Of a stretch of DNA of 46,742 bases, positions 9,584 through 46,030 are shown one piece after another. This stretch comes from Gammaproteobacteria bacterium. Lineage in GTDB: Bacteria; Pseudomonadota; Gammaproteobacteria; HK1. The stretch's first letter is position 1, and each line of letters opens with the position of its first letter. The translations under genes were made by a program, and so were the position numbers. Location: assembly GCA_021773635.1 (NCBI GenBank), contig JAJFJV010000030.1, positions 1 through 46,742 of the forward strand, written 5' to 3'. A model generated the notes under the pieces. That model saw nothing but the letters and a program-made list of their open reading frames with translations, did no database searches and had not been told where the DNA came from.

Positions 9584-9623
9584 GTTGTCTCATCCAGCAG
9601 ACATTTCAGAGAGAGAAAGACAA

Positions 9624-30156: not shown

Positions 30157-32563
30157 TCACAAGTCCACTGCCTTGCCCCCCGTCTGGGCGGAACATCTGA
30201 ACGAGGCGACCCAGTGGCTGGGTGCTTATGTGGAGGGCTCCCGTGGACCCGAGGCCTTGCGAGCTTTCGCTGCGACCCTTTTGCGCCTTGCCCGGCTCAC
30301 AGATATTGCTACGAATGCGGGAGCGGTTAAATCCTTTGAAGCCATCGCCACCCTGGCCCAGGCGCTTAGCGGTAGCAGCGGCCCCGCCAGCGAGGAAGGC
30401 AACCACCATCTACAGATCGCGTTTAGCTCGGTACCCGGGCGCTTGGCGGCGATGCACCAAAACACACCCTTTGAGAACGGCACTTCGATGCCACCCAAAG
30501 TGCTGGCAAGCGCCCTGCGGGTACGTAATAACGACGCCCTGCTGGAACATCTGGAGGCCGGAATTCCCCATCAGGCCAGCCAGCAACTTCCGCCGGGTGA
30601 CGCGGGAAAGTCCCGGCTTCGGCAGCTCCGCGGATACTTCCAGCGCAGTCTGACTGGCTGGCTGCGCAACCCCGCGGGCACGGCTCATACCGCGCTAATG
30701 GCGCAAGTGCTGGGTGAATTGGGGCAACACACCCCGATACAGGAACAGGGCAATCTTTGGTGGTGTGGGCAAAGCATTGCCATGGCCCTGATGGCCGGAC
30801 AGCTACGTGCCACACCACCACTGCGCCGCACGCTCTTCCGGCTGGATGGTGAATTGCGTGCGCTGCAGCAAGACCAGTCACCTTCCCAAACTACCCCGGC
30901 ACTCTGCCACGACCTGCTGTTTTACTGCTTGCTTGCCGGCCCGGCCAACCCACGCGCCCGGGCTTTGCACCAAGTGCTGGCGGCGGGCGTAAAAACGCAG
31001 CAGGCAACGCCCACCCGAGATACATCAACTCAGGAAGAGGTAGAAATCCCGGAACACCTGCAGGCAGATATAGATCATGCCCGTAACCTGCTCCGGCGTA
31101 TCGATGGAAACACTGCAGAATCTGAGGCGCAGTTTCAAGATGCCCCCAGCTCCGGTCACACCGATCCTGAAAGCATCCCCGCCTATGTGGATGCCGAAGC
31201 CCTGCGACAGTTTTTTGACCGTGCCGGCGAAATCAAGGAAACACAATTTCGCATGGAACAACAGGGCGGTGCCGTCGACAATGGCCTGAAGCGCATGGAA
31301 GACACCATCCTCACCCTCAAGACCCAGTTAGAACGCATCGAAGGGCCCATGGAACCACACGCCGAGGTGATTGCCGACAAGCGGCATGGGCGAGACCCCG
31401 GCGGGCAGCTCAACGCCAGCCTTAGCGAAAGCATGGATACACTACGCTCCGCCCATGACCAGCTGCTGGACCTGAAACGGGATTCAAACTCCCTGCTGGA
31501 CCACCAGCACCAGCTCGGCTCTGAACTGGACCAGGTATTGGTCCGATTACGGATGTTGCCCTTCCACCACCTGCTGCCCACGCTTCGGGAATTTGTTGCG
31601 GAGCAGGTGGCGCGCCACCCCGGAAAGGCGCTTGAACTCTCCGTGCTTGGGGAGGAAGTGCAGCTGGAGCGGAGCCTGCTGGAACCCCTGGAAAAACTGC
31701 TGAAGACCCTTATCGCAAGCGCCATCTCGGGGGGTATGGAAAGGGCCGAAGCGCGCAGCGAATTGAGCCAGGAGAAAACCGGCTATCTCCATCTGGTGCT
31801 CACCCAGGAAAAAGCCGGGCTTTGTATCCAGCTCTGGGATGATGGCACCACCCCGGATCACCCGGAGATTTTGCGCAGGGCAGTTGCTCGCGGCGTGCTG
31901 GAGGCCGAGGACAAACCCTCTACCGAGGCGATACTACAATGCCTGAGCCACCCGGCAATGGCACGCGAGGCACCCACTTTCCCACGCATAAAGGGATTGA
32001 TAGAGAGTGCCCATGCCGCTCACGCCCTCGGTGGCAGCCTCCGGCTTGCCACTAACCCTGGCGGTGGCCTAAAGGCCATTGTCACACTCGGCACCCAGCC
32101 CAGTGTGGGCGAAGTGTTGCTCATCGAACTCCATGATGAAGCCTACGCCATACGGCTGAATGACATCCGGGGACTGACCCGCATCAGCCACGAGGAGCTG
32201 GAAGCATTGGCCGGTCATCAACCGCTGCAACACGTACACCAGGAACGCAGCTATCGGTGCGTCGAACTAAGGCACGCACTGGGCGTGCCGGCTAACGACG
32301 ACACCACAACCCCACACTCCCGACCGGCATTGCTGGTGGAGGGCATCAACGGACCCCGCGCAATACTTGTAGATCGGATCCACGGGCGCAGGCAGGCGCT
32401 GGTGCAGCCTATCGCGCCCCCCCTCAATACCCTCCCGCTACTCGCCGGCTCCACCATCAGTGAGCAGGGGCGTGTGATCTTCGTGCTGGATCTGGAGGCC
32501 CTGGATCCTCCCCGGCTTCCCGCCGGAGAAAGCGACACCAGCAACCATCCTGCACCGCCTTAG
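30149..32563 (+). CDS. ChpA/CheA-like protein, apparently inactive kinase
   Basis: 804 residues from ATG 30149 (ATG 30134 is possible). Residues about 1-300 are an all-helical region like FimL or the ChpA N-terminus, without an HPt His motif. About 355-400 match the ChpA dimer helix (DAEALRQFFDRAGEIKETQF). About 450-620 match the CheA ATPase (LVRLRMLPFHHLLPTLREF), but the N-box reads LLKTLIASAISGGME where active kinases have LRNAVDHGIE, and the GRGVGMD G-box is gone. About 650-790 is a CheW-like regulatory domain. There is no receiver domain. It looks like a scaffold derived from ChpA. Confidence 0.86.
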   Translation: MNDHKSTALPPVWAEHLNEATQWLGAYVEGSRGPEALRAFAATLLRLARLTDIATNAGAVKSFEAIATLAQALSGSSGPASEEGNHHLQIAFSSVPGRLAAMHQNTPFENGTSMPPKVLASALRVRNNDALLEHLEAGIPHQASQQLPPGDAGKSRLRQLRGYFQRSLTGWLRNPAGTAHTALMAQVLGELGQHTPIQEQGNLWWCGQSIAMALMAGQLRATPPLRRTLFRLDGELRALQQDQSPSQTTPALCHDLLFYCLLAGPANPRARALHQVLAAGVKTQQATPTRDTSTQEEVEIPEHLQADIDHARNLLRRIDGNTAESEAQFQDAPSSGHTDPESIPAYVDAEALRQFFDRAGEIKETQFRMEQQGGAVDNGLKRMEDTILTLKTQLERIEGPMEPHAEVIADKRHGRDPGGQLNASLSESMDTLRSAHDQLLDLKRDSNSLLDHQHQLGSELDQVLVRLRMLPFHHLLPTLREFVAEQVARHPGKALELSVLGEEVQLERSLLEPLEKLLKTLIASAISGGMERAEARSELSQEKTGYLHLVLTQEKAGLCIQLWDDGTTPDHPEILRRAVARGVLEAEDKPSTEAILQCLSHPAMAREAPTFPRIKGLIESAHAAHALGGSLRLATNPGGGLKAIVTLGTQPSVGEVLLIELHDEAYAIRLNDIRGLTRISHEELEALAGHQPLQHVHQERSYRCVELRHALGVPANDDTTTPHSRPALLVEGINGPRAILVDRIHGRRQALVQPIAPPLNTLPLLAGSTISEQGRVIFVLDLEALDPPRLPAGESDTSNHPAPP

Positions 32564-32569
32564 TTCACG

Positions 32570-32989
32570 GTGGAAAAAGAGTGCATAAACTGCCTGCTCC
32601 TGCCCCTTGCCACGGGCAGGCTACTGGTACCGGCCGCCCTGGTGGCCCACGTACAACCCTTGGAACAGCCCATCATTCAGCGCGACGACGGGCCCCCATG
32701 GCTTGTGGGGAATATTGATTGGCGTAATCATCAGTTGCCCGTCATCGCACCCGACCATCGCGCTTCTGAGACTATAGCCATCTTGCACACCCTGGAACCA
32801 GAGACAGGACCCGAATTCTTTGCCTGCCTGCTTTCGGAACTCCCGCGATTTCTTCAATTCCCAAGGCAAGGCATTTCCTGGAGCAAACAAGAAGATCGCC
32901 CGCTGCCCTGCGTCGTGGGTGCGGTGCAACTGGATGACGGACCCGCGTGGATTCCGGATCTGGAAGGTCTGGAAGCCGCCCTGCAATAG
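32570..32989 (+). CDS. Short CheW-like protein (ChpC-like)
   Basis: 139 residues, start GTG 32570, six bases after the ChpA-like gene. It is recognisable as a CheW-like fold from LLLPLATGRLLVPAALVAHV, PPWLVGNIDWRNHQLPVIAP and the closing GPAWIPDLEGLEAAL. It takes the place of chpC as the last gene of the Pil-Chp-like order. A second coupling protein often links an additional receptor or regulator to the array. Convergent with the beta-barrel gene; no clear terminator in the 101-bp gap. Confidence 0.82.
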   Translation: MEKECINCLLLPLATGRLLVPAALVAHVQPLEQPIIQRDDGPPWLVGNIDWRNHQLPVIAPDHRASETIAILHTLEPETGPEFFACLLSELPRFLQFPRQGISWSKQEDRPLPCVVGAVQLDDGPAWIPDLEGLEAALQ

Positions 32990-33090
32990 CTACGGTCTAA
33001 TATTTTTTTGCAGTGGAATTCAAAGGTGCCCGTGCTCCGCCTGGAATCTCTGACACACCCATCGTAACGATTGGAATTATTCGGTGCGTG

Positions 33091-35583
33091 TTAGAAATTG
33101 ATCCGGTATCCCGCGTTCACAAAATAGCTGCGGGTAATTTCCGCGCTTCCAGCCCGCCGGTCCTTGGCCCATTCACCCCCCACCTCTGCCTCGAAACGCA
33201 CCTGTTTCTTCCAGCGATTTTCTACCCGCAGCGACGGCGTAAGGGTAAACCGCTCACCCGTATCCCGCTTGTTCTGGCGGTAGGACAGGGTTGCCTTGGG
33301 ATTGATGCGAAACGCCCGTGTAAACGGGTATCGGGTGTTGATATTGAGGCTCACGGTGTCCGAGGTATTGACGTCAGAATAGCGCAGCCCAAGGATACCG
33401 ATGTCGCCCTCCTTAAGTAATCCGCTACCGATAAGCTGGGTACTAATGAAAAAATCATAACCACTGCTCGATGTTCCATCGATACCACCATTTAGCAGTT
33501 TGCTGTTGAGGGAAGCATCCGTGCCGGAGGTATGGCTTACGTTGGCATCGCCGGTAATCTGAAATTTCTCACTCAGCGGGCGCGATGCACCCAGGGTGAA
33601 CGATGTGGTGGTCGCAGCACGATCACGGGCAAACTGCCGCAATTCATCCTTACTGAAGGTTCCGAGCGCATCGGAGATGGATAAAATACTGGTGCCCGCC
33701 GCATTGAGTTGCTGCAGGGCATTACTGGTGGTCAGAATAGGGCTTTTGCGACGGTCAAAGGTGGCATTGAATGAGGTCCGGTCTGGCAGCGTCCAGGTTC
33801 CAAGCACCAGAAAGGTATTGAGGGTGCGGTAAGAAATATCGTAGTCCACCAGGCTGAACAGTGAACGCCCGGCGGAAAAATAGCGCGCTTCACCACCGGC
33901 AGCACGGCGATCCGTGATTCCGTCTACCTGCTGATCGATGACGAAGACATTAAAGTCCCAGCGTTCGTTAAAGGTCCCGAGATCGGCACTCAAGCCGGTG
34001 AAGTGCTTGTCTGTGGTAATCGTGGTGTCATCGGTATCATTAACGGGGTAGCCGAACACCGCGTTCAATTTCAGCTTGGGCGAAAACCCGTAACCCACCA
34101 ACGCACCATCAAAGCGTCCAAGCACACCGCCGGTGCTGCGCGACTGACGCCCCGCCCGCAAGGAGGCACGGCTTCCGCCCTTGTGAAAGGCATCAAAAAA
34201 TAACTCGCTGACAGAGGTGTCGCTGTCGGCTGCATCGAGAAAGTCGAGCTCGTGTCCGCCGGTGAACTGGAAGCGCAAATCGTAGTCCTTGCCACGCCGC
34301 CGGGCACTGAGATTCACATTGGTGGGCAATCTGGACTGCGTGATGGTTGTTCCCGCGGCCTGGGTACGCAGAATATCGCGCCGATAAAACTGCGAGAGCC
34401 CGCCAAAAACACGCCAGACCGGAGCCGCTGCGCGACGAGCTCGCCGGGTTTTCTTTCCCAATGATTTTTTGGGCGCCTTGCTGGCAGTTAATAAGCCCGC
34501 AAGCCGCTGCCGAACCCGCTCCGTCGCTTCACCCTCCGGATACTCCAAAAGATACTTTTTGTACTCCGCCTTGGCATGGGCAAGTTGTCCATTGCGCTCC
34601 CGGGCCAACGCCAGCAACTCCCGTGATTCACGCCGGTAGCGTCCCCCCGGCTCCCGCAAAATCCGGGTTAGCAGACGTATGGCACCGCGATAATTCTTTG
34701 CGGTCATTGCGTCCTTGGCTTCGCCAAACATCTGGCTCAGGCGGGTTTCTGACAAGCGCCGGGTAGCCTTCGGTATGGCGCTGGCCGCCTTCACCGGTGA
34801 TCGGGTTAATCTGCTTCGTAGCGGGGCCGACATTTCTCCCAGATGAGCGGCTATTTCCGTTGCCGGGGCCCGCTCAATCCATGTCTGTGGATAATCATTG
34901 CGGATTTTTTCTGCCATTTTTTTTGCGCTGGAAAAGCTCGGAAAGAAACCGAGACGCAGCCGATGCCACTCCTTTCCATCTTTGGTAAACGAGGTGGTGT
35001 AGAAAGCATAGCCACTTATCGCCGCCGGACGCACCAGCCGGTCAAGCACAAAGGCCTTTTGGGAAGACCGCAGGTTAAGCACGTAATGCCGACGCTCAGC
35101 CAGGCCTGCAGCGGGTGGGGTGATTTTCTTCGGCTTGGCAGCAATGCGGGGAGACAGGGGGATACTGATCACCACACTACGGAAATCACTGCCGTCATGG
35201 ACAGCGGCTTTGACGCCAGTTTTCAGACGGACCAGCAGTTCAGGAAAACCCGCGGTTTCCCCGTCAAATATGACTTCGGTAACAGGCACCGCGGCGGTCG
35301 CGTCCCAGGACAGGGACTCGCGTACTTTCAGCAGCGAACTTTCGGTGCCAGGCGCGGTAACCGGCTGCAATTGAATGCGTAACAGCCGCCCGCCCTCGGC
35401 AACCTGATGGGCCACATAGCGCACGGGGAAATTAAAGAGAATACTGAGATCAGCGGCGTCCTGGTGTTTCTCCACCCGGATCTCGGACAAAATTCTGGAA
35501 CCGACTTCTGCTGCCTGCAACGACGATGTGAATATGAATATGCCCGCTATCAAGACTACGCGGAAACCCGAAAAATAGCGCAA
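33091..35583 (-). CDS. Outer-membrane beta-barrel with SPOR and TPR regions
   Basis: 830 residues. Signal peptide (1-24, ends SLQAA). A beta-rich domain (25-145; NFPVRYVAHQ, DGSDFRSVVISIP) is shared with the small protein encoded upstream. A SPOR-like domain follows (about 165-245; YVLNLRSSQKAFVLDRLV, LRLGFFPSFSSAKKMAEKI), then a TPR-like stretch (275-365), a basic linker (KKTRRARRAA), and about 440 residues of alternating strands ending in Phe (NAGYRINF), the BAM signal of outer-membrane barrels. The last gene of the cytochrome operon, it could be the outer-membrane pore or anchor for the multihaem proteins. This is inference; it does not read as an MtrB-type porin. Confidence 0.8.
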   Translation of the reverse strand: MRYFSGFRVVLIAGIFIFTSSLQAAEVGSRILSEIRVEKHQDAADLSILFNFPVRYVAHQVAEGGRLLRIQLQPVTAPGTESSLLKVRESLSWDATAAVPVTEVIFDGETAGFPELLVRLKTGVKAAVHDGSDFRSVVISIPLSPRIAAKPKKITPPAAGLAERRHYVLNLRSSQKAFVLDRLVRPAAISGYAFYTTSFTKDGKEWHRLRLGFFPSFSSAKKMAEKIRNDYPQTWIERAPATEIAAHLGEMSAPLRSRLTRSPVKAASAIPKATRRLSETRLSQMFGEAKDAMTAKNYRGAIRLLTRILREPGGRYRRESRELLALARERNGQLAHAKAEYKKYLLEYPEGEATERVRQRLAGLLTASKAPKKSLGKKTRRARRAAAPVWRVFGGLSQFYRRDILRTQAAGTTITQSRLPTNVNLSARRRGKDYDLRFQFTGGHELDFLDAADSDTSVSELFFDAFHKGGSRASLRAGRQSRSTGGVLGRFDGALVGYGFSPKLKLNAVFGYPVNDTDDTTITTDKHFTGLSADLGTFNERWDFNVFVIDQQVDGITDRRAAGGEARYFSAGRSLFSLVDYDISYRTLNTFLVLGTWTLPDRTSFNATFDRRKSPILTTSNALQQLNAAGTSILSISDALGTFSKDELRQFARDRAATTTSFTLGASRPLSEKFQITGDANVSHTSGTDASLNSKLLNGGIDGTSSSGYDFFISTQLIGSGLLKEGDIGILGLRYSDVNTSDTVSLNINTRYPFTRAFRINPKATLSYRQNKRDTGERFTLTPSLRVENRWKKQVRFEAEVGGEWAKDRRAGSAEITRSYFVNAGYRINF

Positions 35584-35754
35584 AATCCCGCCTCCCTGTC
35601 ATACGCTCGTAGATATTCGTTTGCTTCGCCCGGCACTCGATCTGCCGAATCTTTATTATTATTTTCAGAAAGTTAACTAACTATCATTGATTACTAACAC
35701 ATATATGCATCGTAAACCACTATATTTTATGCCTTTTTGTGTCCTCGTCACACT

Positions 35755-36237
35755 TTAAGGAGTACAAGTGGCCGCGGACGAAGCCCCTGGAACAACGACA
35801 GTGATGCTGCGGAAATCGCCCCCCTGCGATACCGCCGCCCTTCGTGGCCCGGAAAATTCAAGATGTAATACGGGTCCGTTGGGTGAATTCCCCTGATAGA
35901 CCACGGCTTCTACCACATCATTCTCACCATTCTCGGGAAAGACGGCCTCCCGCTGCACCAGCACATCCTGGTCCCCGGGGTTTAGCCTAATCGGCCTGAG
36001 CTCAATGTGCAGCTCATCGTGGGCATGCAACGGGAAATGCCGCACATAGCGCACCGGAAAGCTGAAATCTATATTCACCACGAGACAACCATCGTCACGG
36101 GAATATAGCTGGGCTCCCTCCAGCACCCGGTCCCGCACGGGTTGCGCCATTAGCCAGAAGGCCGGCATAAGCCCAATGAGCAGCAGACCAGTCCACCAGG
36201 CGCACTTGCATCCACGACCACAAATTCGGGAAACCAT
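35755..36237 (-). CDS. Small membrane-anchored or exported protein, AMIN-like domain
   Basis: 160 residues from ATG 36237, preceded by GAGGGGG; the longer frame to GTG 36348 overlaps the cytochrome gene and adds residues before the hydrophobic segment (WWTGLLLIGLMPAFWLMAQ). The rest resembles the N-terminal domain of the beta-barrel protein downstream: INIDF-type VNIDFSFPVRYVRHFPLH, LHIELRPIRL and GGDFRSITVVVPG. Both are reminiscent of AMIN domains, which bind cell-wall components. A partner or adaptor for the barrel is plausible. No named family recognised. Confidence 0.72.
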   Translation of the reverse strand: MVSRICGRGCKCAWWTGLLLIGLMPAFWLMAQPVRDRVLEGAQLYSRDDGCLVVNIDFSFPVRYVRHFPLHAHDELHIELRPIRLNPGDQDVLVQREAVFPENGENDVVEAVVYQGNSPNGPVLHLEFSGPRRAAVSQGGDFRSITVVVPGASSAATCTP

Positions 36238-36341
36238 GGGCCTTACCCCCTCAGCGAAGAATCCGGGCGGTAACAATGTTGCTATTTCAGGTGTCGAGGC
36301 GCCCGAAATGGGATTGTCATAGCCGTTCGAGCCCTGTGTAT

Positions 36342-39059
36342 CTACCACCCGTCCTTGTTAATGCTGTGCTTGTTGCTCTGATGTTTCTCAATCACACTGA
36401 AAGTGTTGTCCGTATATCTGTGGCAGGAACCCTCGCAATCCCTGAGTTCTCCCACTGAATACAGTACATCGGGCTCCTTGACCTTCTTGTGCTTGTCCTG
36501 CTTTTGCAGGTAATCGCTCGCGTGACAGCCGGCACAATCCGGGCGGTAGGATGGCGAAAACCAGGTAGCATTCTGACTGTTGCCGGTATGACAATCCGTA
36601 CATTGCAGGTTTTTGCCGTGTTGCCCCGGATATTCCGGTGAAGAATGCTGGAAATCAATCGGTATCCAGAAGGATGTATCGTGGCAACTGTCGCACTGCA
36701 AGGTGGTGACAAAATGGCCGCCCGGCTTACCGGGTGCGGTCACCCCATTGTGACAACTGGAACAACTACCGGTAACCGTTCCGTGATCGAAATTGGCCGG
36801 CAACCAGGCAATCGTCGTATGGCAGATATCGCATTGACCACTGGTCTGGACGTGATTACCCGGTTTTCCCAGCGCCAGAACGCCATTGTGGCAGGTTGAA
36901 CAGGTCGCCGTCACACCCGTATGGTCAAAGGTCGCACCGGCCCAACCCGAAGTCGTATGACAGTCATCGCACAGATTGCTGGTAGGCAGGTGGGTGGGGG
37001 ATTTACCGGAAGCAGTTAAGCCATTATGGCAACTCGCGCAGCTTCCCTGCACCGCGCCATGATCTACTTGCGATACCGGCGCCCAGGCCAGGGTAGTGTG
37101 GCAATCATCACAGAGGTTGGTGGTAGCGATATGGGTCCCACCCTTGCCCGGGGCCGTTACCCCATTGTGGCAACTGGAGCAGGAGCCTGTGACCCCGGCG
37201 TGGTCGAAGATCGCACCGGCCCAGCCTGAAGTCGTATGGCAGTCATCACACAGATTACCGCTGGGCAGGTGGGTGGGGGATTTACCGGAAGCGGTCACCC
37301 CATTGTGGCAACTCGCACAGCTTCCTTGCACCGCACCATGATCCACCTGGGACACCGGGACCCACGCGGAGGTCAAATGACAGTCCTCGCAGAGGTTGGT
37401 GGTCGCCATATGAGTTCCACCCTTGCCCGGAGCAGTCACACCGTTATGGCAGCTGGAGCAGGAACCCGTAACGCCTGAATGATCGAAGATCGCGCCCGAC
37501 CAGCTGGTGGTGGTATGGCAGTCGTCACACAGATTGCCACTGGCGAGGTGAGTCGGCGACTTGCCCGGGGCGGTCACTCCATTGTGGCAGCTCGCACAGC
37601 TACCCTGCACCGCACCATGATCCACCTGGGATACCGGGACCCAGGCGGAGGTCAAATGACAGTCCTCACAGAGGTTGGTGGTCGATATATGAGTTCCACC
37701 CTTGCCCGGGGCGGTCACCCCGTTATGGCAGCTGGAGCAGGAACCCGTAACACCTGAATGATCGAAGATCGCGCCCAACCAGCTGGTGGTGGTGTGACAG
37801 TCGTCACACAGATTGCCACTGGCAAGGTGAGTCGGCGACTTGCCCGCGGCAGTCACTCCATTGTGGCAACTGGCGCAACTTCCCTGGACCGCACCGTGAT
37901 CCACCTGGGACACGGGAATCCAGATGGAGCTCAGGTGGCAATCCTCGCAAAGATTGGTGGTCGCCATATGAGTTCCACCCTTGCCCGGGGCAGTCACGCC
38001 GTTGTGGCAACTGGCGCAGGAGCCCGTAACACCCGCATGATCGAACTGGGCACTGGCCCAGCTGGTAGTGGTATGGCAATCCTCGCAGAGATTACTGCTG
38101 GCGAGGTGGGTGGGGGATTTGCCCCGGGCGGTGACACCGTTGTGACAACTTGCACAGCCGCTGCTGATCCCCGGGTGGAGAAATTGCGCACCGGCCCAAG
38201 TGGCCGTGGTGTGACAATCCTCACACAGATTATCGGTGGGCAGGTGATTCGGCGTTTTACCGGGAGCGGTCACCCCATTGTGACAACTCGAACAGCTCCC
38301 CTGCACCGCCCCGTGATCCACCTGTGACACCGGGATCCAGGCCCCCGTCAGATGGCAGTCCTCGCAGAGATTGGTGGTCGCCATATGACTCCCGCCCTTG
38401 CCCGGGGCAGTCACGCCATTGTGGCAACTGGAGCAGGAGCCCGTAACACCCGCATGATCGAACTGGGCGCTGGTCCAGCTGTTAGTGGTATGGCAATCCT
38501 CGCAGAGATTACCACTGGCAATATGGGTGGGGGATTTCCCCTGGGCGGTCCCGCCATTGTGGCAGCTTGCGCAGCCGCTGCTTATGCCCGGATGATCAAA
38601 CCGTGCGCCGACCCAGGTGTTGGTGGTATGACAATCCTCACAGAGGTTGCCACTGGCGATATGGTTGGACGATTTACCTTCTGCAGTGACTCCATTGTGG
38701 CAACTGGAACAGGTGCCCGTTACCCCGGCATGGTCAAATTGTGCACCCAGCCAGCGCTCCGTATCGTGGCAACTCTCACAGGCCAGGTTGGTCGGAATAT
38801 GGTTGGTAGATTTACCGGAGAGCCCCACCGGGCTGCCCTGTGAATGACACACCTCGCAACGGGTAGGTGTGCCCTTGAACACGCCGCGTATATGGCAGCC
38901 CTGACACTCGGCGACCGCATGCTTTCCGGTCAGGGCAAAACCCGTAGAAAGATGGTCGAAGTCAGCCGTAACCTGCGCCATCACGGGCATTCCCTGGAGT
39001 GCCAACAGGAGCCCCAGGGCAAAAACCTGCCCCAATACACGAGACAGGAGGGTGCTCAT
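36342..39059 (-). CDS. Giant multihaem cytochrome c, about 36 haems
   Basis: 905 residues. A Sec signal peptide (ends PVMAQ) is followed almost throughout by haem motifs: I count 35 CxxCH plus one CxxxCH (CEGSCH) near the C-terminus. Two alternating modules make up the body, CSSCHNGVTAPGK..TH and NLCEDCHTT..W....FDH. Each has one haem site and one extra His, so bis-His ligation of every haem is likely. A 93-residue, four-haem unit is repeated in tandem. No membrane anchor is seen. The protein overlaps the 24-haem cytochrome gene by four bases. A periplasmic or extracellular electron conduit is the obvious reading; the electron acceptor is unknown. Confidence 0.93.
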   Translation of the reverse strand: MSTLLSRVLGQVFALGLLLALQGMPVMAQVTADFDHLSTGFALTGKHAVAECQGCHIRGVFKGTPTRCEVCHSQGSPVGLSGKSTNHIPTNLACESCHDTERWLGAQFDHAGVTGTCSSCHNGVTAEGKSSNHIASGNLCEDCHTTNTWVGARFDHPGISSGCASCHNGGTAQGKSPTHIASGNLCEDCHTTNSWTSAQFDHAGVTGSCSSCHNGVTAPGKGGSHMATTNLCEDCHLTGAWIPVSQVDHGAVQGSCSSCHNGVTAPGKTPNHLPTDNLCEDCHTTATWAGAQFLHPGISSGCASCHNGVTARGKSPTHLASSNLCEDCHTTTSWASAQFDHAGVTGSCASCHNGVTAPGKGGTHMATTNLCEDCHLSSIWIPVSQVDHGAVQGSCASCHNGVTAAGKSPTHLASGNLCDDCHTTTSWLGAIFDHSGVTGSCSSCHNGVTAPGKGGTHISTTNLCEDCHLTSAWVPVSQVDHGAVQGSCASCHNGVTAPGKSPTHLASGNLCDDCHTTTSWSGAIFDHSGVTGSCSSCHNGVTAPGKGGTHMATTNLCEDCHLTSAWVPVSQVDHGAVQGSCASCHNGVTASGKSPTHLPSGNLCDDCHTTSGWAGAIFDHAGVTGSCSSCHNGVTAPGKGGTHIATTNLCDDCHTTLAWAPVSQVDHGAVQGSCASCHNGLTASGKSPTHLPTSNLCDDCHTTSGWAGATFDHTGVTATCSTCHNGVLALGKPGNHVQTSGQCDICHTTIAWLPANFDHGTVTGSCSSCHNGVTAPGKPGGHFVTTLQCDSCHDTSFWIPIDFQHSSPEYPGQHGKNLQCTDCHTGNSQNATWFSPSYRPDCAGCHASDYLQKQDKHKKVKEPDVLYSVGELRDCEGSCHRYTDNTFSVIEKHQSNKHSINKDGW
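36940..38110 (-). repeat. 279-bp higher-order tandem repeat in the cytochrome gene
   Basis: The 11-base marker CCCTTGCCCGG recurs at 37141, 37420, 37699 and 37978, exactly 279 bases apart each time, and again at 38395. Each 279-bp unit encodes 93 residues with four haem sites. The boundaries given are approximate. Strong nucleotide identity between units suggests recent duplication or gene conversion. Confidence 0.9.
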
Positions 39060-40822
39060 CGCACACGAATCACGGAAAACGACTCATTGACATGGCAGCG
39101 CTCACAGCGACGGCCAAAGCCGCCACGATGCTCATCATCGCCCTGGTGGCAAGCTACACATTCCGTTGACATAACAATTTCTCCTTCGGTCCGTTCCTTG
39201 TGGCAAGCGGTGCAACCCAGCTCCTCATGAGCCCCCTGCAACGGAAATTCCGTCTGTTTATCGTGGTCAAACTCCCAGTACTGCCAGCCGTTGGGGTTAT
39301 GGCATACCGCACACCGGGTCCCCAGTGTCCCTTCATGGACATCCTCCGGCTGGTGGCAGGCAACGCAGTCCATCTCCGTATCTTTAAATCTGGAAGAGAG
39401 GTGGCAAGCCTCGCAAGGCGCGCTAGCATGCAAGCCAATGAGGGGGAAACGGGTGATATCGTGCTCGAACCGAATCCGCTCACCCCAATTTTTATCCCCG
39501 TGGCAACGTCCACATTCTTTTCCCTGCTGGCCTTCGTGCACATCATCTTTTTCATGACATGAGAAACACGTCCCATCCATCTTTTCAGGTTCCGTTCCCT
39601 TGCGATGACAAGCATGGCATGCAAGCCCCGTATGTCCTCCGCTTAGCGGAAACTCCGTGTCCTTGTCATGCTCGAACCTGACCTGTTTCCAGTTTTCTTC
39701 CTGGTGACATCCCACACATGATTTTCCCAGTGCGCCCACATGAATATCATCCCGCTGGTGACAACCGTTACACCGCTTTCCCGGTGTATCATCCCGAAAC
39801 AATTTGCCCCGGTGGCAGGCCTCGCAGGAAAGCTGGCGGTGCTTCCCCTGCAAAACAAAGTCCGTATCCCGACCGTGGTCGAAGCTTACGCGCGACCATG
39901 ATTCCTCTCTGTGGCATTTTTCACATTTCCGGCCATTACGCTCGCGATGCTCGTCATCATTCTTGTGACAGGCGTAACATTCCCGGGCCATTTCCTGCTC
40001 ATAGTTATCATTCTTGTGACAGGCTTTGCATTGCAGCTTTTGGTGCGCCCCCAAAAGTTTAAAGTCGGTCTCCTTGTCATGGTCAAAACGAATCTCCCGC
40101 CAGCCTTTCTCCTCGTGACATTTATCACACCGCTTGCCAAAGCGACCCGTATGCACATCGTGAATACCATGGCATGCCTGACATTGCGTGGAGGGTAATT
40201 TGTAGCGAGCATCCGGATGACATTGCTTGCACGCCACTTCCTCGTGCTTTCCCAGCAGTGCGAACTTTGTTTTTCCATGGTCAAAACGGGAATCAGACCA
40301 GCTCTTTTCCGTATGACAGTCGCCGCACTCTTTTCCCAGCTTGCCCCGGTGAGGCTCATTTTCGCCATGACAGTTTTCACATCGTGAAGGGGCCTCCCGA
40401 AATTTATTTTTTTCCTTGTGACAACCGGAGCAGCCCGCCTTTTGATGCGCGCCGACTAAGGGAAAATCCGTGTAACGATGGTCGAATGCATCGCGATCCA
40501 GGACAACGATATCGACCTCGCGCCCCTGATGTTCAGTATGGCAATGCTTGCAGTCCTGACCCTTTATATTTTCCTCACGGCCGTGAAAACCACGCCCATT
40601 CTGAACATCCAGGGCCGTCTCCTCGTGGCAATCCAGACACAGCGGCGCCTGAGCCTGCTTTTTAAATGACTGATGACATTTTGCGCAATTTGTTTCGTAT
40701 TCCTCATGCGCCTGGATGACAGGCCCCGGCATAACCAGGGATTCAAAAATACCGGCACTCGTCGCGGATGAAAAAACCGGCAGCAGTATTGCCAGATAAA
40801 GCAGAAACAGTCTCTTGCCCAT
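39056..40822 (-). CDS. Multihaem cytochrome c, 24 haems
   Basis: 588 residues with a signal peptide (about 1-23). I count 24 CxxCH motifs and no other variants. The N-terminal part (NCAKCHQSF, CLDCHEE, DCKHCHTEHQGRE) resembles cytochrome c3/c7-type modules. The rest repeats a three-haem unit of roughly 70 residues: C..CH...DDxHxGxxGxxC..CH, then W..xxFDHxxxTxFxLxGxH, then C..CH. Many of the conserved His lie outside CxxCH and can be the distal ligands. It is rich in Lys and Glu, unlike the neutral Gly/Ser/Thr-rich 36-haem protein, which suggests different partners. It is likely the periplasmic carrier between the membrane b-type protein and the larger cytochrome. Confidence 0.93.
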   Translation of the reverse strand: MGKRLFLLYLAILLPVFSSATSAGIFESLVMPGPVIQAHEEYETNCAKCHQSFKKQAQAPLCLDCHEETALDVQNGRGFHGREENIKGQDCKHCHTEHQGREVDIVVLDRDAFDHRYTDFPLVGAHQKAGCSGCHKEKNKFREAPSRCENCHGENEPHRGKLGKECGDCHTEKSWSDSRFDHGKTKFALLGKHEEVACKQCHPDARYKLPSTQCQACHGIHDVHTGRFGKRCDKCHEEKGWREIRFDHDKETDFKLLGAHQKLQCKACHKNDNYEQEMARECYACHKNDDEHRERNGRKCEKCHREESWSRVSFDHGRDTDFVLQGKHRQLSCEACHRGKLFRDDTPGKRCNGCHQRDDIHVGALGKSCVGCHQEENWKQVRFEHDKDTEFPLSGGHTGLACHACHRKGTEPEKMDGTCFSCHEKDDVHEGQQGKECGRCHGDKNWGERIRFEHDITRFPLIGLHASAPCEACHLSSRFKDTEMDCVACHQPEDVHEGTLGTRCAVCHNPNGWQYWEFDHDKQTEFPLQGAHEELGCTACHKERTEGEIVMSTECVACHQGDDEHRGGFGRRCERCHVNESFSVIRVR

Positions 40823-40825
40823 GCG

Positions 40826-41695
40826 TCAGTACATATGTACCGCAACGATATGAGCAATTGCCGTAATCACCAGAAAAATAAACAGGGGCAAATGCAGCAG
40901 ATGCCACATGGAGAAAAGACGCTCAAAAAATGTAAGCCCTGCGACCATCCTGCAGGTCTTCAGATACTTGCGAATGCGATGACGGGCACTCTTCCGGTAG
41001 GATATTTTCCTTGGCTTACTCCATCCCGCACGTGCAATTTCCCGCTTCAGGTAGTGCAGGGACAACAGGTGGGCCATCCGGCTTTTATAAGCCGTTTTCA
41101 GCACGTGGAAAGCAGCACCTGCAAGTGATGGCACAGCGGTATCAATTTCGTCTACAGCATGATCAATGTATCGCCGAACTCGTGGAAAATCGGCAATTAT
41201 TCGGTTGAGCAGGGAGCTTGAGGATTCGAGAGAGCGGGTAAGTTCACGTAACTTTATGTGATTGCCGTAAAGTCCATAGTGGATCTGGCTATAGATATAG
41301 CGGCCAGCAAGACCGCTCAAGGCAACTGCCAACATGGAGAATAGCGCCACATTACTGTTGATTGAACCCAGGTTAAAATTGCAGTGAAACAGGATGGCGA
41401 CGGGCCCCACCACGCCCAGTACCATATGGATTCGGAACCAGTTTCTCAGCGCCCCCCAGCCACGCATGAACCGCACGCGTTTGCGTAACGGATAGCCCAT
41501 CAGTAGCAGCATCAGCACACTGCCGATAATCCCCAGGGCATAACCGAGTCCGGATTCCGGAGTGAGGTGGTACTCCCCGCGCTCGCTCCAGCCCGTAACC
41601 AGCATGTAGACCACCAACAGGGAAAATAGATAGGTAGAGGCTTGCAGAGCTACAAAAGAAAAGGAGGCGCTTCTCGAACGTTGCAGACCAGCCAT
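40826..41695 (-). CDS. Cytochrome b-like integral membrane protein
   Basis: 289 residues. Hydrophobic helices lie at about 10-35, 48-68, 87-110, 118-136 and 262-285. His residues fall inside two of them: IHMVLGVVGPVAILFHC in the third and HLLHLPLFIFLVITAIAHIVAVH in the last. Pairs spaced 13-14 residues apart are typical of haem b ligation. A long basic cytoplasmic region sits between helices four and five. ATG 41695 has an AGAGG site. It is the first gene of the leftward operon and probably passes electrons from the quinone pool or from the divergently encoded flavoprotein to the cytochromes. No exact family recognised. Confidence 0.8.
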   Translation of the reverse strand: MAGLQRSRSASFSFVALQASTYLFSLLVVYMLVTGWSERGEYHLTPESGLGYALGIIGSVLMLLLMGYPLRKRVRFMRGWGALRNWFRIHMVLGVVGPVAILFHCNFNLGSINSNVALFSMLAVALSGLAGRYIYSQIHYGLYGNHIKLRELTRSLESSSSLLNRIIADFPRVRRYIDHAVDEIDTAVPSLAGAAFHVLKTAYKSRMAHLLSLHYLKREIARAGWSKPRKISYRKSARHRIRKYLKTCRMVAGLTFFERLFSMWHLLHLPLFIFLVITAIAHIVAVHMY

Positions 41696-41720
41696 CCATA
41701 AGCCTCTTAAATCTACGCCT

Positions 41721-41757
41721 TTTCCCGAAGGTTCGGGAAACTCCGGGGATTCCGGAG
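41721..41757 (-). promoter_or_regulatory. Two tandem inverted repeats in the leader of the cytochrome operon
   Basis: TTTCCCGAA-GG-TTCGGGAAA (41721-41740, 9-bp arms) directly followed by CTCCGG-GGATT-CCGGAG (41741-41757, 6-bp arms). If the leftward transcript starts near 41762, both fall in its 5' leader, 26 to 62 bases before the ATG. They could be operators or leader hairpins. Confidence 0.55.
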
Positions 41758-41764
41758 AGAACTG

Positions 41765-41793
41765 TTGACTATATAGGGAACAAGACGCATGAA
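41765..41793 (+). promoter_or_regulatory. Candidate sigma-70 promoter for the ferredoxin-flavoprotein gene
   Basis: TTGACT (41765-41770), 17-base spacer, CATGAA (41788-41793). The start site near 41800 would lie inside the CRP-like palindrome, so CRP binding would block this promoter. Confidence 0.4.
41768..41773 (-). promoter_or_regulatory. Candidate -10 element of the leftward cytochrome operon
   Basis: TATAGT on the minus strand, giving a start near 41762. The CRP-like site centred at 41803.5 would then be at -41.5, the standard class II activator position. Confidence 0.4.
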
Positions 41794-41794
41794 T

Positions 41795-41812
41795 CTGTGA
41801 ATTATTTCACAG
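41795..41812. promoter_or_regulatory. CRP/Vfr-type operator
   Basis: CTGTGAA-TTAT-TTCACAG, a perfect 7-bp-arm palindrome. It contains TGTGA-N6-TCACA, the exact core of the E. coli CRP consensus. It lies in the 210-bp gap between the divergent cytochrome and flavoprotein genes. Confidence 0.75.
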
Positions 41813-41905
41813 CATTATCGACTGAACAGGACGATCCTGAGCCGCTGGCGCGAAACTGAGCGCCCTAGGCATATCCATTCCCTGTTTCTGCGTGGTGTAC
41901 ATCCA

Positions 41906-43213
41906 ATGGCATCAATGCCCTACAGCCTTGTTTACTACGCGCCCGTGCTACTCGTGCTCTGGGCCACATACCTGCTCTTCAGGTCACGCAGGGAACGCAA
42001 ACACCGAAAACTGTGGGATGAAGCGAAACACTCTGGTCTGACCGAGCCCGCTTCCCTGCATCCGGTTATCGACCCCAACCGCTGCGTCGGCTGTGGCTCC
42101 TGTGCCCACGCCTGCCCCGAGAACCACGTAATCGGCGTGGTGGGCGGAAAGGCCAAGCTCATTCACCCAACCCGCTGTATCGGGCATGGTGCGTGCAAAA
42201 TTGCCTGCCCCATGGACGCGATCACACTGGTATTCGGCACCGAGAAACGCGGCATTGATATTCCCAATATACAACCCGATTTCCAAACCAATGTGCCGGG
42301 TCTCTTCATCGCCGGAGAGCTCGGTGGTATGGGGCTTATCCGCAACGCAGTGGAGCAGGGACGGCAGGCCATGGAAACCATCCGCAAACTACCCGGTATC
42401 GGCAAGGGAGATGACCTGGATGTACTGATCGTCGGCGCTGGACCCGCAGGATTTTCCGCCTCACTAGGAGCCAAGCAGCATGGGCTACGTGCGGTGACGG
42501 TGGAACAGGAGTCACTGGGGGGCACCGTCTTCCACTACCCCAGAGGCAAGGTGGTCATGACCGCGCCCGCCATCCTGCCCATTTACGGCAAGACAAAATT
42601 CAAGGAAACCACCAAGGAAGAACTGCTGACCTTCTGGAATGACGTGGAAAAGAAAACCGGTATCTCTATCAACTATGAAGAACGCATGGAAAAAATCAGC
42701 CAGACCGATACCGGTTTTGAGATCAAAACATCACGGGGTAACTATTCCAGCCGGGCGATATTGCTCGCCCTGGGTCGACGAGGCACGCCCCGAAAACTAG
42801 GGGTTCCCGGTGAGGAATTGCCCAAAGTTCTCTATCGCCTGATCGACCCCGCCCAGTATGAAAATCAGCATGTTCTGGTTGTTGGCGGTGGCGATGCCGC
42901 ACTTGAAGCAGCCACCAGTATTGCCGAAGAAACAGGTACTACGGTCACCCTGTCCTACCGCAGCGAAGCCTTTGGACGGGCCAAGGAAAAAAACCGCGAC
43001 AAGGTAGTCGCAGCCGAATCAGCGGGGCGCCTGCAACTGTTGATGAAATCCAATGTGAAGAAAATCGGTGAAGACTATGTCGAGCTCGAACATGCGGACG
43101 AGGCAGTCAAGCTGCCAAACGACGCAATAATAGTCTGCGCGGGCGGCATTCTGCCCACCCCCTTTCTGAAAGAAATCGGTATCGAAGTCGATACCAAATT
43201 CGGTACTGTCTGA
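41906..43213 (+). CDS. Membrane-anchored ferredoxin-flavoprotein oxidoreductase
   Basis: 435 residues. An N-terminal membrane helix (about 6-25) is followed by two [4Fe-4S] motifs. The first is CVGCGSCAHACP; the second, CIGHGACKIACP, has His where the second Cys normally is. Then comes a thioredoxin-reductase-like flavoprotein, with FAD site VLIVGAGPAGFSAS (about 173-186) and NAD(P) site VLVVGGGDAALEAA (about 325-340). The FAD-closing motif TNVPGLFIAGELGG, normally at the C-terminus, lies before the first dinucleotide site, so the fold appears circularly permuted. It probably moves electrons between NAD(P)H and an iron-sulfur or membrane carrier. Confidence 0.87.
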   Translation: MASMPYSLVYYAPVLLVLWATYLLFRSRRERKHRKLWDEAKHSGLTEPASLHPVIDPNRCVGCGSCAHACPENHVIGVVGGKAKLIHPTRCIGHGACKIACPMDAITLVFGTEKRGIDIPNIQPDFQTNVPGLFIAGELGGMGLIRNAVEQGRQAMETIRKLPGIGKGDDLDVLIVGAGPAGFSASLGAKQHGLRAVTVEQESLGGTVFHYPRGKVVMTAPAILPIYGKTKFKETTKEELLTFWNDVEKKTGISINYEERMEKISQTDTGFEIKTSRGNYSSRAILLALGRRGTPRKLGVPGEELPKVLYRLIDPAQYENQHVLVVGGGDAALEAATSIAEETGTTVTLSYRSEAFGRAKEKNRDKVVAAESAGRLQLLMKSNVKKIGEDYVELEHADEAVKLPNDAIIVCAGGILPTPFLKEIGIEVDTKFGTV

Positions 43214-43237
43214 AAATTCCCGGATTCGAAGCAGGTG

Positions 43238-45277
43238 ATGCGAAACCATAATATCCAGAAGGCCGCCAAATACAGCTTGCTGTCGCTGCTGCTCCTCACC
43301 CCCCTCACGGTGAGCGCAGATGATATGGATGCGGCACTCCAGGCGGTTCGTACCCGGGCCTATGACCAGGCGGCAGGCTTGTTGCAACCGCTCGCGCAAC
43401 AGGGAAACGCCGAGGCTCAATACCAGCTGGCAAGCCTCTACCGTTCCGGACGAGGCGTGCCGAAAGACCACGCCCGTGCGGTTACCCTGCTGCAATCGGC
43501 CACCAAGCAGGGGCATCCTGCCGCGCAATATCAGCTGGGTGTAATGTATGAACGCGGCTGGGGTGTCGCGGGCAATGCCGAAGCAGCAGAAAAGTGGTTT
43601 CGGACCGCCGCGGCGAATGGACACCATCTGGCAAAACGGCGCCTCAAACAGGGGCCACCGCCTACCCGCAGGCGTACGCAAAACCCACCCCCGCCAGCGG
43701 AAAGAGCACCTTCCGTTAAGCCCGAAGAACTGCTCCACCACGCCGCTGCCCGCGGTGACCAGAAGCTGCTGAAGCAGGCACTTTCTCTACAGGCCAAAGT
43801 AAACGCCAGGGATCGCCATGGCCGTACCGCACTGATGGAGGCAGCTGAAAACGATCATGGCAATCTGGTCAGCGAACTTCTACGCCAGCACGCTAACCCG
43901 GAACAGTATGATCCCTTCAACGATACCGCCCTTCTGCTGGCGACACGCAAGGGTGCATTTTCCGCCGTTCGTGCCCTCCTTCAGGGTGGTGCGGCAACCG
44001 ATGTGCAAGACAAAAATGGCGATACCCCGCTGATCATTGCGGCGAGAAAAAATCACCGACGGATCCTGAACGCCTTGCTAAAAAGGCGTGCCAATATCTC
44101 CCTGAAGAACAAAAACGGGCGCACGGCCATCGCCGTCGCTCTGACACGCAAACATACAGCCGCCGTCAAAATTCTGGAAAATCACGGTGGCATTGTCCCG
44201 CCAAAATCCACACCTAAGGCGACCGCCGATCTGGAAAATCCGGCGATACTTGAAAAGCTGGCCACGCGGGGTGTTACCAACGAAGGCGTTTATGCCGGCT
44301 GGTCGACACTGATGACCGCCAGCTGGCGGGGACAGGAAAGACTGGTGCAAACGCTGCTTGCCAAAGGTACGGCAGTAGATTGGCAGGACGATCAGGGCTA
44401 CACCGCACTCAGCCGGGCTGCCTGGCAGGGCCACGAAAATATCGTCATGGCCCTGCTGCAAGCCGGTGCAGATGCCAACACCGTGGCCAATAACGGGCAA
44501 ACACCACTTCTTCACGCCATCGAAGGTGGCCACCCCGCTGTGATTAAACGCCTGTTGGCTGAAAATGTGGGTGTGGAGCGCCGTCCCAATGGCCGGGCAC
44601 CACTTATCGTCGCGCTCGAGTCAGGGCAACAGGACGCGGCCGCAATGCTTCTGGAAAATGGTGCGTCGGTTAAGGTTAGCGACCAGCAAGGCCGCTCCCC
44701 GCTTATTTGGGCCGCCCGCAAAGGACTGGAACAAAGCACCATGCGCTTGCTGGTCGCCGGCGCGGATCCCGCACTGCAGGATGCCCGGGGCTGTAATGCA
44801 CTCTGGTTCGCGGCAAGTGAGGGGCACGACAAAGTGGTCAGCCTGCTGGCACCGCTAGGGGATGTAAATGCCACTGACCGGCAGGGCTATACTGCGCTCG
44901 CGCGGGCCGCCCGCCAGGGGCACAAATCCTCCATCCGCCTTCTGCTTACGACGGGTGCGGCCATCGATCTGGCCAATCAATCCGGTAATACCCCCCTCAT
45001 TCTCGCCGCCAAACAGGGGCATACCGCCACCATCGAACTGTTAATTTCCAGCGGAGCGAAAGTTGACCGGAAAAATATCAACGGCAATACCGCACTCATG
45101 CTGTCCGCCGCCGCGGGACACGCGGAAACCGTTCGTATGCTGCTAAAAAGAGGTGCCAACCCGAAGCTGCGAAACGAGCGGCGTGAACGTGCCCATCAGC
45201 TTGCGAACAAAGCAGGTCATCAGGATATTCTTGCGATCATCAACGGTGCCCACAAAGATAGCGGGTGGTTTCGCTAG
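43238..45277 (+). CDS. Exported Sel1 and ankyrin repeat protein
   Basis: 679 residues from ATG 43238 (GTG 43235 also possible). Signal peptide up to about 28 (ends TVSA). Three Sel1 repeats follow (about 35-135; AEAQYQLASLYRSGRGVPKD is the first clear one), then a Pro-rich linker (about 140-160) and 14-15 ankyrin repeats to the end (for example GNTPLILAAKQGHTATIELL). It starts 24 bases after the flavoprotein gene in the same direction. A secreted protein made only of interaction repeats suggests a periplasmic scaffold, perhaps for the cytochromes; this is inference. Confidence 0.88.
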   Translation: MRNHNIQKAAKYSLLSLLLLTPLTVSADDMDAALQAVRTRAYDQAAGLLQPLAQQGNAEAQYQLASLYRSGRGVPKDHARAVTLLQSATKQGHPAAQYQLGVMYERGWGVAGNAEAAEKWFRTAAANGHHLAKRRLKQGPPPTRRRTQNPPPPAERAPSVKPEELLHHAAARGDQKLLKQALSLQAKVNARDRHGRTALMEAAENDHGNLVSELLRQHANPEQYDPFNDTALLLATRKGAFSAVRALLQGGAATDVQDKNGDTPLIIAARKNHRRILNALLKRRANISLKNKNGRTAIAVALTRKHTAAVKILENHGGIVPPKSTPKATADLENPAILEKLATRGVTNEGVYAGWSTLMTASWRGQERLVQTLLAKGTAVDWQDDQGYTALSRAAWQGHENIVMALLQAGADANTVANNGQTPLLHAIEGGHPAVIKRLLAENVGVERRPNGRAPLIVALESGQQDAAAMLLENGASVKVSDQQGRSPLIWAARKGLEQSTMRLLVAGADPALQDARGCNALWFAASEGHDKVVSLLAPLGDVNATDRQGYTALARAARQGHKSSIRLLLTTGAAIDLANQSGNTPLILAAKQGHTATIELLISSGAKVDRKNINGNTALMLSAAAGHAETVRMLLKRGANPKLRNERRERAHQLANKAGHQDILAIINGAHKDSGWFR

Positions 45278-45283
45278 GCTGTT

Positions 45284-46030
45284 TTATCCGGTCTGTTGGT
45301 CGCCGAAATCACCCTGCAACAATTGCAGCGCGGTCAGCCCGGCCACCACCGCAGTCTCCGCTCGCAGAATGCGCGGCCCGAGTCCCATGGCCATCCAGCC
45401 TGCTTGCCGTGCCGCCGCAACTTCCGCTTCACTCAATCCGCCCTCCGGCCCAATCAGAAGATCGGTTCCGGTTGTGGAAGAAGTCATCATCGATAAGGGT
45501 TGGGCCGCAGGATCAAGCAACACCTGCTGACGTCCGCAAGCTGGCGTAGCCAGATATTCGGCCAACGGCATAACTGGCAGCAGTTCCGGAATACGGGTAC
45601 GACCGCATTGCTCACAGGCATGTATCACGACCTTGCGCCAGTGACTGGTACGACGCCGGGCACGCTCACCGCCGAGACGAACCACGGTGAACTCGGTCAT
45701 CAGCGGTACGATACGATGTACGCCCAGCTCCACCGCCTTTTGTACCGCGAAATCCATGCGCTCACCGCGACACACGGCGAGGGCAAGGGTTAGCGACAGG
45801 GATGATTCACGAATCGGGGAACAGGCGGTCCCGGTACATGCTGAAGCACTGCCCCCTCGCGGGAGGTTCAGGGTAGCCGGGTACTCATCTCCTGCCCCGT
45901 CGAAGAGAATGAGTTCTGCGCCGTTCTTCAAGCGCAAAACCCGGGTCAGATAGTGAACGGTGTCCGCGGACAGCGCGTACACCTGCTCCGATGCCAGCGG
46001 AAACTCCACATAAACCCGACTGATCCGCAT
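45284..46030 (-). CDS. rsmE: 16S rRNA (uracil1498-N3)-methyltransferase
   Basis: 248 residues. An N-terminal PUA-like part (RISRVYVEFPLASEQVY, HYLTRVLRLKNGAELILFDG) precedes a SPOUT knot methyltransferase (about 75-245) with LLIGPEGGLSEAEV and LGPRILRAETAVVAGLTALQ, the SAM-binding knot. AVQKAVELGVHRIVPLMTEFTVV is the family's central block. It methylates U1498 in the decoding region. It ends six bases from the ankyrin gene stop, convergent. Confidence 0.96.
   Translation of the reverse strand: MRISRVYVEFPLASEQVYALSADTVHYLTRVLRLKNGAELILFDGAGDEYPATLNLPRGGSASACTGTACSPIRESSLSLTLALAVCRGERMDFAVQKAVELGVHRIVPLMTEFTVVRLGGERARRRTSHWRKVVIHACEQCGRTRIPELLPVMPLAEYLATPACGRQQVLLDPAAQPLSMMTSSTTGTDLLIGPEGGLSEAEVAAARQAGWMAMGLGPRILRAETAVVAGLTALQLLQGDFGDQQTG

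Follow-up and report, generated by a model that had tools for sequence, protein, structure and literature searches.

The window analysed here, a stretch of 46,742 nucleotides from a gammaproteobacterium (assembly GCA_021773635.1, contig JAJFJV010000030.1, positions 1 to 46,742), contains a block of seven genes (32990..45283) whose products could together carry electrons across the cell envelope. Five of them are on the reverse strand: a putative di-haem b inner-membrane protein (IMP; 40826..41695) with five transmembrane (TM) segments, two WX3HX13H motifs and an SGXXG motif; a 24-haem cytochrome (P; 39056..40822); a 36-haem cytochrome (X; 36342..39059); a small exported protein (35755..36348); and a barrel protein (33091..35583), the porin of the set. 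The other two, on the forward strand, encode a membrane-tethered ferredoxin-flavoprotein of NAD(P)H type with two Fe-S motifs (FD; 41906..43213) and an exported protein with Sel1 and ankyrin repeats (ANK; 43235..45277). All seven open reading frames (ORFs) of a preliminary description, made from the sequence alone, were found at their positions, and its view that the gene set would suit a trans-envelope electron route is borne out by the co-conservation of the genes and by a plausible entry point for electrons from NAD(P)H. The locus is not undescribed, as had been supposed: four of the seven genes (barrel, P, X and IMP) are, judged by their sequences, the PCC3 cluster of He et al. (2017; PMC5566968, cited throughout from its main text), and the idea of an undescribed system was rejected on these matches. 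Our comparison suggests that the novelty lies in FD and ANK as partners and in the direction of electron flow that they imply, not in the PCC3 core itself.

In order to place the window among its relatives, a collection of species genomes was scanned with one peptide pattern, which returned 334 relatives, and the best 80 were kept. Together with the window and 11 stretches from relatives these made a set of 92 loci, or 89 once three duplicates had been dropped, a sample that leans towards IMPs resembling that of the window. The record titles of the holders name Alpha-, Gamma- and Deltaproteobacteria, Nitrospinaceae, Nitrospira, Nitrospirae and Omnitrophota; most of these records are metagenome-assembled genomes (MAGs), and some of the taxon labels may be wrong.

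PCC3 consists, in the main text of He et al. (2017), of a porin, giant extracellular and periplasmic cytochromes (median 34 and 21 haems, respectively) and an IMP of about 300 residues that spans the membrane five times and bears SGXXG in its fourth helix and WX3HX13H in the third and fifth; it is presented there as a four-gene cluster with a link to quinones, held by Alpha-, Beta- and Gammaproteobacteria. The window has the same four core genes in the same order, the same IMP motifs, haem numbers within the range and the same repetitive cytochromes. Its IMP (289 aa) has five hydrophobic segments and all the motifs, its two cytochromes have 24 and 36 evenly spaced haem motifs, and a barrel is modelled for its porin; of 44 loci that allowed the test, 42 have one. 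The same locus (L097) is found in Bradyrhizobium sp. STM 3843, a strain that the same paper (PMC5566968) lists as having PCC3. It comes with an IMP 41% identical to that of the window, ANK, FD, a P of 18 haems and an X interrupted by the contig end, beyond which the barrel would lie. Across the sample IMP has P as its immediate successor in 87 of the 88 loci that could be tested, and the X gene comes after that of P, in the same orientation, in 70 of 76. The preliminary description had proposed checking whether the genes are conserved together: this holds for the core genes and FD, and more weakly for ANK (68 of 89 loci) and the small protein, a separate copy of which is present in 11 of 89. 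In two loci (L033 and L088) the barrel and X are encoded on the other strand from IMP, which shows that the usual arrangement on a single strand can be departed from. A Nitrospira MAG (L099) has IMP and a 24-haem P with no X or barrel in the next 8 kb; there, P is followed by a protein of 515 aa that matches TPR and, weakly, peptidases.

Other conduits were compared with the block as well. MtrCAB, MtoAB and PioAB share the plan of a periplasmic cytochrome with a barrel (and, in MtrCAB, a surface cytochrome), but the window has 24 and 36 haems in place of 10 and no CymA-type gene in the block. P is not of the decahaem MtrA type, as it has 24 haems and the DmsE-type decahaem model scores 20 bits against a cut-off of 192. 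The PCC4 clusters of He et al. (2017) have IMPs with similar motifs and also contain other redox genes, but they differ, according to the main text, in having a different IMP family, three smaller periplasmic cytochromes and no extracellular cytochrome.

FD is a near-obligate partner of PCC3. It was found on the locus in 80 of the 89 distinct loci, in 62 of these as a divergent gene upstream of IMP, in 17 upstream in the orientation of IMP and in one downstream, and elsewhere in the genome for eight of the nine loci that lack it on the IMP contig, which brings the total to 88 of 89. A second, separate sample, comprising 274 genomes of the class, was searched with cut-offs placed at visible gaps in the scores (at least 190 bits for a strong IMP, the next match having 87; E at most 4e-49 for a strong FD, the next being 9e-19). 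Strong IMPs were present in 33 genomes and strong FDs in 34, with both in 32 (32 of the 35 with either); the exceptions are G206, where a weak FD match is beside IMP, and G114 and G193 (560 contigs; 72% complete). Seventeen genomes had nothing better than a weak IMP-like match (36-87 bits), and none of them was among those matching FD. FD and IMP are on different contigs in G017, G102, G201 and G284, among which G102 (about 20 contigs, with contig ends unexamined) may be the best case of true unlinking. Among 72,556 plasmids, searched with E limits of 1e-10 for IMP and 1e-60 for FD, one had IMP (E 1e-15) and one had FD (47.6% identity, E 2e-120), and both matches came from the same record, pEMTOL02 of Emticicia oligotrophica DSM 17448 (L178, NC_018749.1, 78197-89995). 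This is a member of the Bacteroidota, whereas the main text of He et al. (PMC5566968) names Proteobacteria only as PCC3 holders. Its co-directional run reads ccsA, IMP, FD, P (23 haems), X (40 haems) and a barrel-like gene, with IMP and FD as neighbours; the barrel-like protein (538 aa), a possible homologue of the PCC3 barrel, matches the profile of the latter weakly (E 0.008) and no Pfam family. Distance matrices taken from the trees of IMP, FD, ANK and P show correlations of 0.50-0.77, values obtained without a control set and not relied on here.

A word search of the main text of He et al. (2017), figures and supplements lying outside it, returned no ankyrin, Sel1, FAD, ferredoxin or flavoprotein, and FD, ANK and the N-terminal domain shared by the barrel and the small protein are features of the window that this text does not mention. 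The literature searched, with most subscription papers outside its reach, held no mention of FD or ANK together with PCC3.

By Pfam, FD has two Fer4 motifs and a Pyr_redox domain. A hydrophobic segment precedes the Fe-S motifs in 75 of 78 sequences, and the mean number of lysines and arginines rises from 0.45 before this helix to 5.1 after it (74 sequences), a charge bias that predicts cytoplasmic FD domains. The second Fe-S motif reads CxxHxxCxxxC in 74 of 74 aligned sequences and also in Emticicia, with His94 at the position expected for the second cysteine; in the first motif the second cysteine is replaced by serine in two of 74 sequences and in Emticicia. Histidine ligands of Fe-S clusters are known in NuoG and NiFe hydrogenase, and His94 is predicted to be such a ligand in FD. 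The second Rossmann unit has GGGDxA and xRxxxFxR motifs (R352 and F356 in 74 of 74, R358 in 73 of 74), the latter fitting what we take to be an NADPH-type site. FD resembles the FAD-NAD(P)H domains of the TrxR/YpdA type, a likeness of sequence only, as it scores 159 bits against the YpdA NCBIfam cut-off of 340, and its alignment shows no conserved CxxC pair outside the Fe-S motifs. L026 (9407-11032) has its FD in two separate ORFs of 294 and 171 aa, perhaps owing to a frameshift or a sequencing error.

The motif residues of IMP are invariant: W86/H90/H104, S127/G128/G131 and W264/H268/H282 in 12 of 12 relatives, and the four histidines in 64 of 64. Loops 2 and 4 are basic, which puts the N-terminus inside and the C-terminus outside, with H90 and H268 predicted on the inner side of the membrane and H104 and H282 on the outer side. 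FD may dock on loop 4, which has about 120 residues and is predicted to be cytoplasmic; the charge bias of both proteins places this loop and the FD domains on the same, cytoplasmic side. An AlphaFold2 model of IMP (pLDDT 86.5) was compared with solved structures: the top VIA-align row was an ABC exporter (Z 11.3, rmsd 6.6, 127 residues aligned), and the profile search of PDB sequences gave only coiled-coil-like rows (best E 0.011). Cytochrome b561 (Z 7.6, rmsd 3.2, 103 residues aligned) was considered as a fold relative and rejected, as the aligned region (residues 150-254) comprises the predicted cytoplasmic helices and is no usable match. He et al. (2017) draw a likeness to NADPH oxidases and the ferric reductase domain (FRD), where HX13H also occurs as a pair on each of helices 3 and 5. 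The path predicted here, by which electrons of NAD(P)H would reach the outside by way of FAD and two b haems, is likewise that of these enzymes; the window differs in that its flavoprotein is a separate gene, has Fe-S motifs and is of the TrxR/YpdA type, and in that it lacks a Pfam FRD match.

On these observations we lean, with modest confidence, towards a conduit of the PCC3 type that is fed from the cytoplasm and works as an NAD(P)H-driven, outward trans-envelope reductase. NAD(P)H would reduce FD (its FAD, then its two Fe-S clusters) at the inner face of the inner membrane, and FD would hand the electrons to two b haems of IMP, from which they would pass to the 24-haem P, through the barrel to the 36-haem X and on to an external acceptor. 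IMP and FD would act like an NADPH oxidase or ferric reductase with a separate flavin half and an outlet lengthened by 60 c-type haems, SPOR would tie the barrel to the cell wall, and ANK would hold P or aid its assembly. Gene content, motifs, topology signals and co-occurrence across genomes are observations; the loading with cofactors, the FD-IMP contact, the outward direction, the acceptor and the roles of SPOR, ANK and the small protein are deduced from them. With a flavoprotein of the NAD(P)H type inside the cell, electrons moving outward go downhill, whereas those moving inward would have to climb against the membrane potential. The near-obligate presence of an NAD(P)H-type FD suggests that electrons enter from metabolism and flow outward, and it predicts both the entry point and the direction. 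The genome of the window has two COX1-family genes (one of which could be an NO reductase), two NapC/NirT-type genes and no match to the large subunit of RuBisCO, and so it does not look like that of a Calvin-cycle iron oxidiser.

The reverse scheme, which we regard as unlikely, would draw electrons out of Fe(II), minerals or cathodes and pass them by way of X, the barrel, P and IMP to the quinone pool, with FD making NAD(P)H or acting beside the conduit. It is the model of He et al. (PMC5566968), who draw the flow inward to quinones, and it agrees with the frequency of PCC3 among Gallionellaceae iron oxidisers, with surveys that count PCC3 among the candidate iron-oxidation systems (PMC10734462, PMC13386937) and with the rise of the IMP of PCC3 copy 2 during iron oxidation in strain CL21 (PMC12442390), all as given in the available parts of these papers. 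In Sideroxydans ES-1, on the other hand, the available text reports that both PCC3 clusters are down on Fe(II) (PMC8788666), while of the two sets of proteins one mostly escaped detection and the other, minus its extracellular cytochrome, was at similar levels in all samples (PMC12016527). Many holders are not known as iron oxidisers, and the lack of a RuBisCO match in the window genome also speaks against inward flow. A transfer from iron to NAD(P) through FD would, furthermore, have to go uphill and work against the membrane potential.

In addition to the published results for inward flow, several points weigh against an outward, NAD(P)H-fed reductase. The two NapC/NirT-type proteins in the genome make a quinol route to P possible, the Fe-S motifs of FD are non-canonical, and FD could instead serve in maturation. 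The searches turned up no solved structure similar to the IMP model, the protein has no PDB match at E 0.001 and no Pfam FRD match at E up to 1, and its likeness to NADPH oxidases is for this reason one of motifs. No experiment demonstrating electron movement by PCC3 was found in the literature searched, and a 2025 paper, in its available part, calls its function unverified, with the direction likewise unproven there. If the outward flow is true, it would change how surveys read PCC3 genes, which now stand among the putative iron-oxidation genes; the cultured holders include Bradyrhizobium sp. STM 3843, Marinagarivorans algicola, Paraglaciecola sp. MB-3u-78 and Emticicia oligotrophica DSM 17448.

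The motif counts agree with the 24-haem and 36-haem cytochromes, and the total of about 60 haems, of the preliminary description: P has 24 CxxCH motifs, and X has 35 CxxCH and one CxxxCH. Spacing is even in both, mostly 16-18, 18 and 32-33 residues in P, which forms eight three-haem modules, and mostly 23-24 residues in X, so the motifs are not there by chance. Both proteins have N-terminal hydrophobic segments, and gene order and homology point to a periplasmic P and an extracellular X. Haem numbers in P also follow steps of three, as 78 of 80 complete genes have 18 (12), 21 (54), 24 (10) or 27 (2) haems, with 22 and 23 in the remaining two. Complete X genes have from 11 to 74 haems, with an even number in 44 of 52. 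PCC3, which is widespread, includes cytochromes that rank among the largest reported for conduits of this kind; in L102 (from 12466) and L111 (from 12713) X has 98 and 96 haem motifs, respectively, before the locus ends, which, if the assemblies are right, exceeds the 85 quoted as the largest in 2017. No match to P was found among PDB sequences.

ANK has Sel1 and ankyrin repeats by Pfam. The 21 loci without it include 17 whose genomes were searched, with four having ANK elsewhere (in one case as two pieces of one frame, in another at a second PCC3 cluster), two partial matches and 11 no match at E 1e-20; in the Emticicia stretch none is annotated. The preliminary description had all seven genes together holding every step of the route; by the 11 genomes and the Emticicia stretch, ANK is not a necessary part of it. 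Where present, its length follows the haem number of P: 456-586 residues at 18 haems (12 of 12), 614-705 at 21 (36 of 39; the outliers are L035 with 377, L032 with 950 and L034 with 1004), 670-687 at 24 (5 of 5) and 961-963 at 27 (2 of 2), and in the 24-haem forms, including the window, ANK is no longer than in the 21-haem forms. Length contrasts on the tree correlate with r 0.64 (56 tips), or 0.43 without the two 27-haem loci, and rest on few events, about four in all, namely three drops to 18 haems with a shorter ANK and one rise to 27 with a longer one. No such relation to P was seen for the sizes of the barrel (r -0.25, 32 tips), X (r -0.03, 36) or FD (r 0.01, 56). The dependence on P is read here as a sign that ANK lies along P or handles it.

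This relation and the genes for cytochrome maturation near PCC3 also bear on another explanation, in which FD and ANK are assembly factors, FD supplying the power to reduce haem or cysteines while the giant cytochromes mature and ANK handling the unfolded apocytochrome, and the electron path is linked to quinones. Clustering of neighbouring ORFs returned mostly frames overlapping the core genes, and the Ccm result alone was used: CcmI/CycH-type ORFs occur in 39 of the 92 loci (one by a weak match), 19 of them just upstream of IMP, and CcmF-type ORFs in 13 of 92, which suggests that PCC3 often brings its own maturation help. The ccsA gene at the head of the Emticicia run and the resemblance of FD to YpdA and thioredoxin reductases fit the same explanation. 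FD is predicted to face the cytoplasm, however, and its invariant cysteines lie in the Fe-S motifs with no CxxC redox pair, whereas haem attachment is periplasmic; the 17 genomes with only weak IMP-like proteins, moreover, have no FD match. We consider a role of both proteins in assembly improbable. The loci with a CcmI/CycH-type ORF just upstream of IMP include L044, L075, L096, L106, L110, L111 and L114, while no CcmI- or CcmF-type genes were seen in the block of the window. A mutual substitution of ANK and the CcmI-type protein was considered and rejected, as several loci have both.

The outward reading can be extended, tentatively and with a good deal of doubt, to PCC3 as a whole. It would then be a quinone-independent, NAD(P)H-fed reductase in several phyla, in which FD, with an invariant Fe-S site of Cys3His type, drives a di-haem b IMP resembling a split NADPH oxidase, and a periplasmic ANK serves as a ruler or scaffold matched in length to P, whose three-haem steps are fitted to the width of the periplasm.

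In the barrel protein, Pfam recognizes SPOR (E 2e-6), and TPR/YfiO matches fall below the curated cut-off. The AlphaFold2 model, made with 32 sequences (pLDDT 82.6, pTM 0.56), has a beta domain at residues 30-142, SPOR at about 166-238, TPR helices at 279-367 and 22 strands, by count, at 390-829. Foldseek listed porins and ushers first (best E 4.6e-10, TM-score 0.23 by query) and VIA-align siderophore receptors (Z 16.4, rmsd 4.3, 367 residues aligned); with such low TM-scores, these matches indicate a barrel and no nearer kinship. MtrB has 26 strands, against the 22 modelled here. What we take to be the Pfam family of MtrB/PioB matched neither the window barrel (E up to 1) nor any of 32 members (E up to 0.01). 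The preliminary description had set the barrel apart from MtrB/PioB for its SPOR and TPR parts, and the separation stands on the missing Pfam match, but these parts are ordinary in its own porin family, where one TPR model matches 21 of 32 members and SPOR 11 of 32.

The N-terminal beta domain of the barrel (35140..35523), which the preliminary description had not mentioned, recurs in the small protein (BLASTP E 6e-13), of which it makes up the greater part, and is present in 37 of 46 barrel ORFs longer than 550 aa (duplicates included). Neither Pfam nor the PDB sequences gave it a noteworthy match (none in the PDB at E < 0.1). AMIN was tried as an identity and rejected by sequence, since it matched none of 36 members; such Pfam matches as there were looked like chance, each in a single member (best E 0.0096). 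Among the 11 loci with a separate copy of the small protein, L094 is cut by the contig end and L027 has it outside the usual place. The small protein had been described as anchored, but its homologues mostly have apparently cleavable signal peptides and no strong TM segment was found in the protein itself, and it is probably exported and soluble; compared by length with its homologues, it probably starts at the in-frame ATG 36237 (160 aa) and not at GTG 36348. PHROGs gave no match for the barrel, the small protein or IMP.

The block lies between a cheW-like gene (end 32989) of a chemotaxis cluster and an ORF at 45284-46030, which we take to be rsmE. In a genome of the same genus (G001) the matches to these two genes are 30 bp apart with no cluster between them, and cheA and the next flanking gene are also in order. 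As the flanks adjoin there without any of the seven genes, the block was gained or lost as one unit; the comparison fits either direction and may reflect loss in G001 or gain in the others. In G002 the block is at the same site, over two contigs, one with the cheW-like gene and the barrel and the other with ANK and rsmE. IMP matches were found in 16 of 55 relatives searched and in none of 14 genomes of the same family but other genera. A promoter scan found two candidates against 7.5 expected. The chemotaxis-like genes (27656-32989; named by eye, without a family search) directly adjoin the block and are outside the island, since they are also present at the empty site of G001. Elsewhere in the window, a protein at 9585-10412 bears a PEP-CTERM sorting motif.

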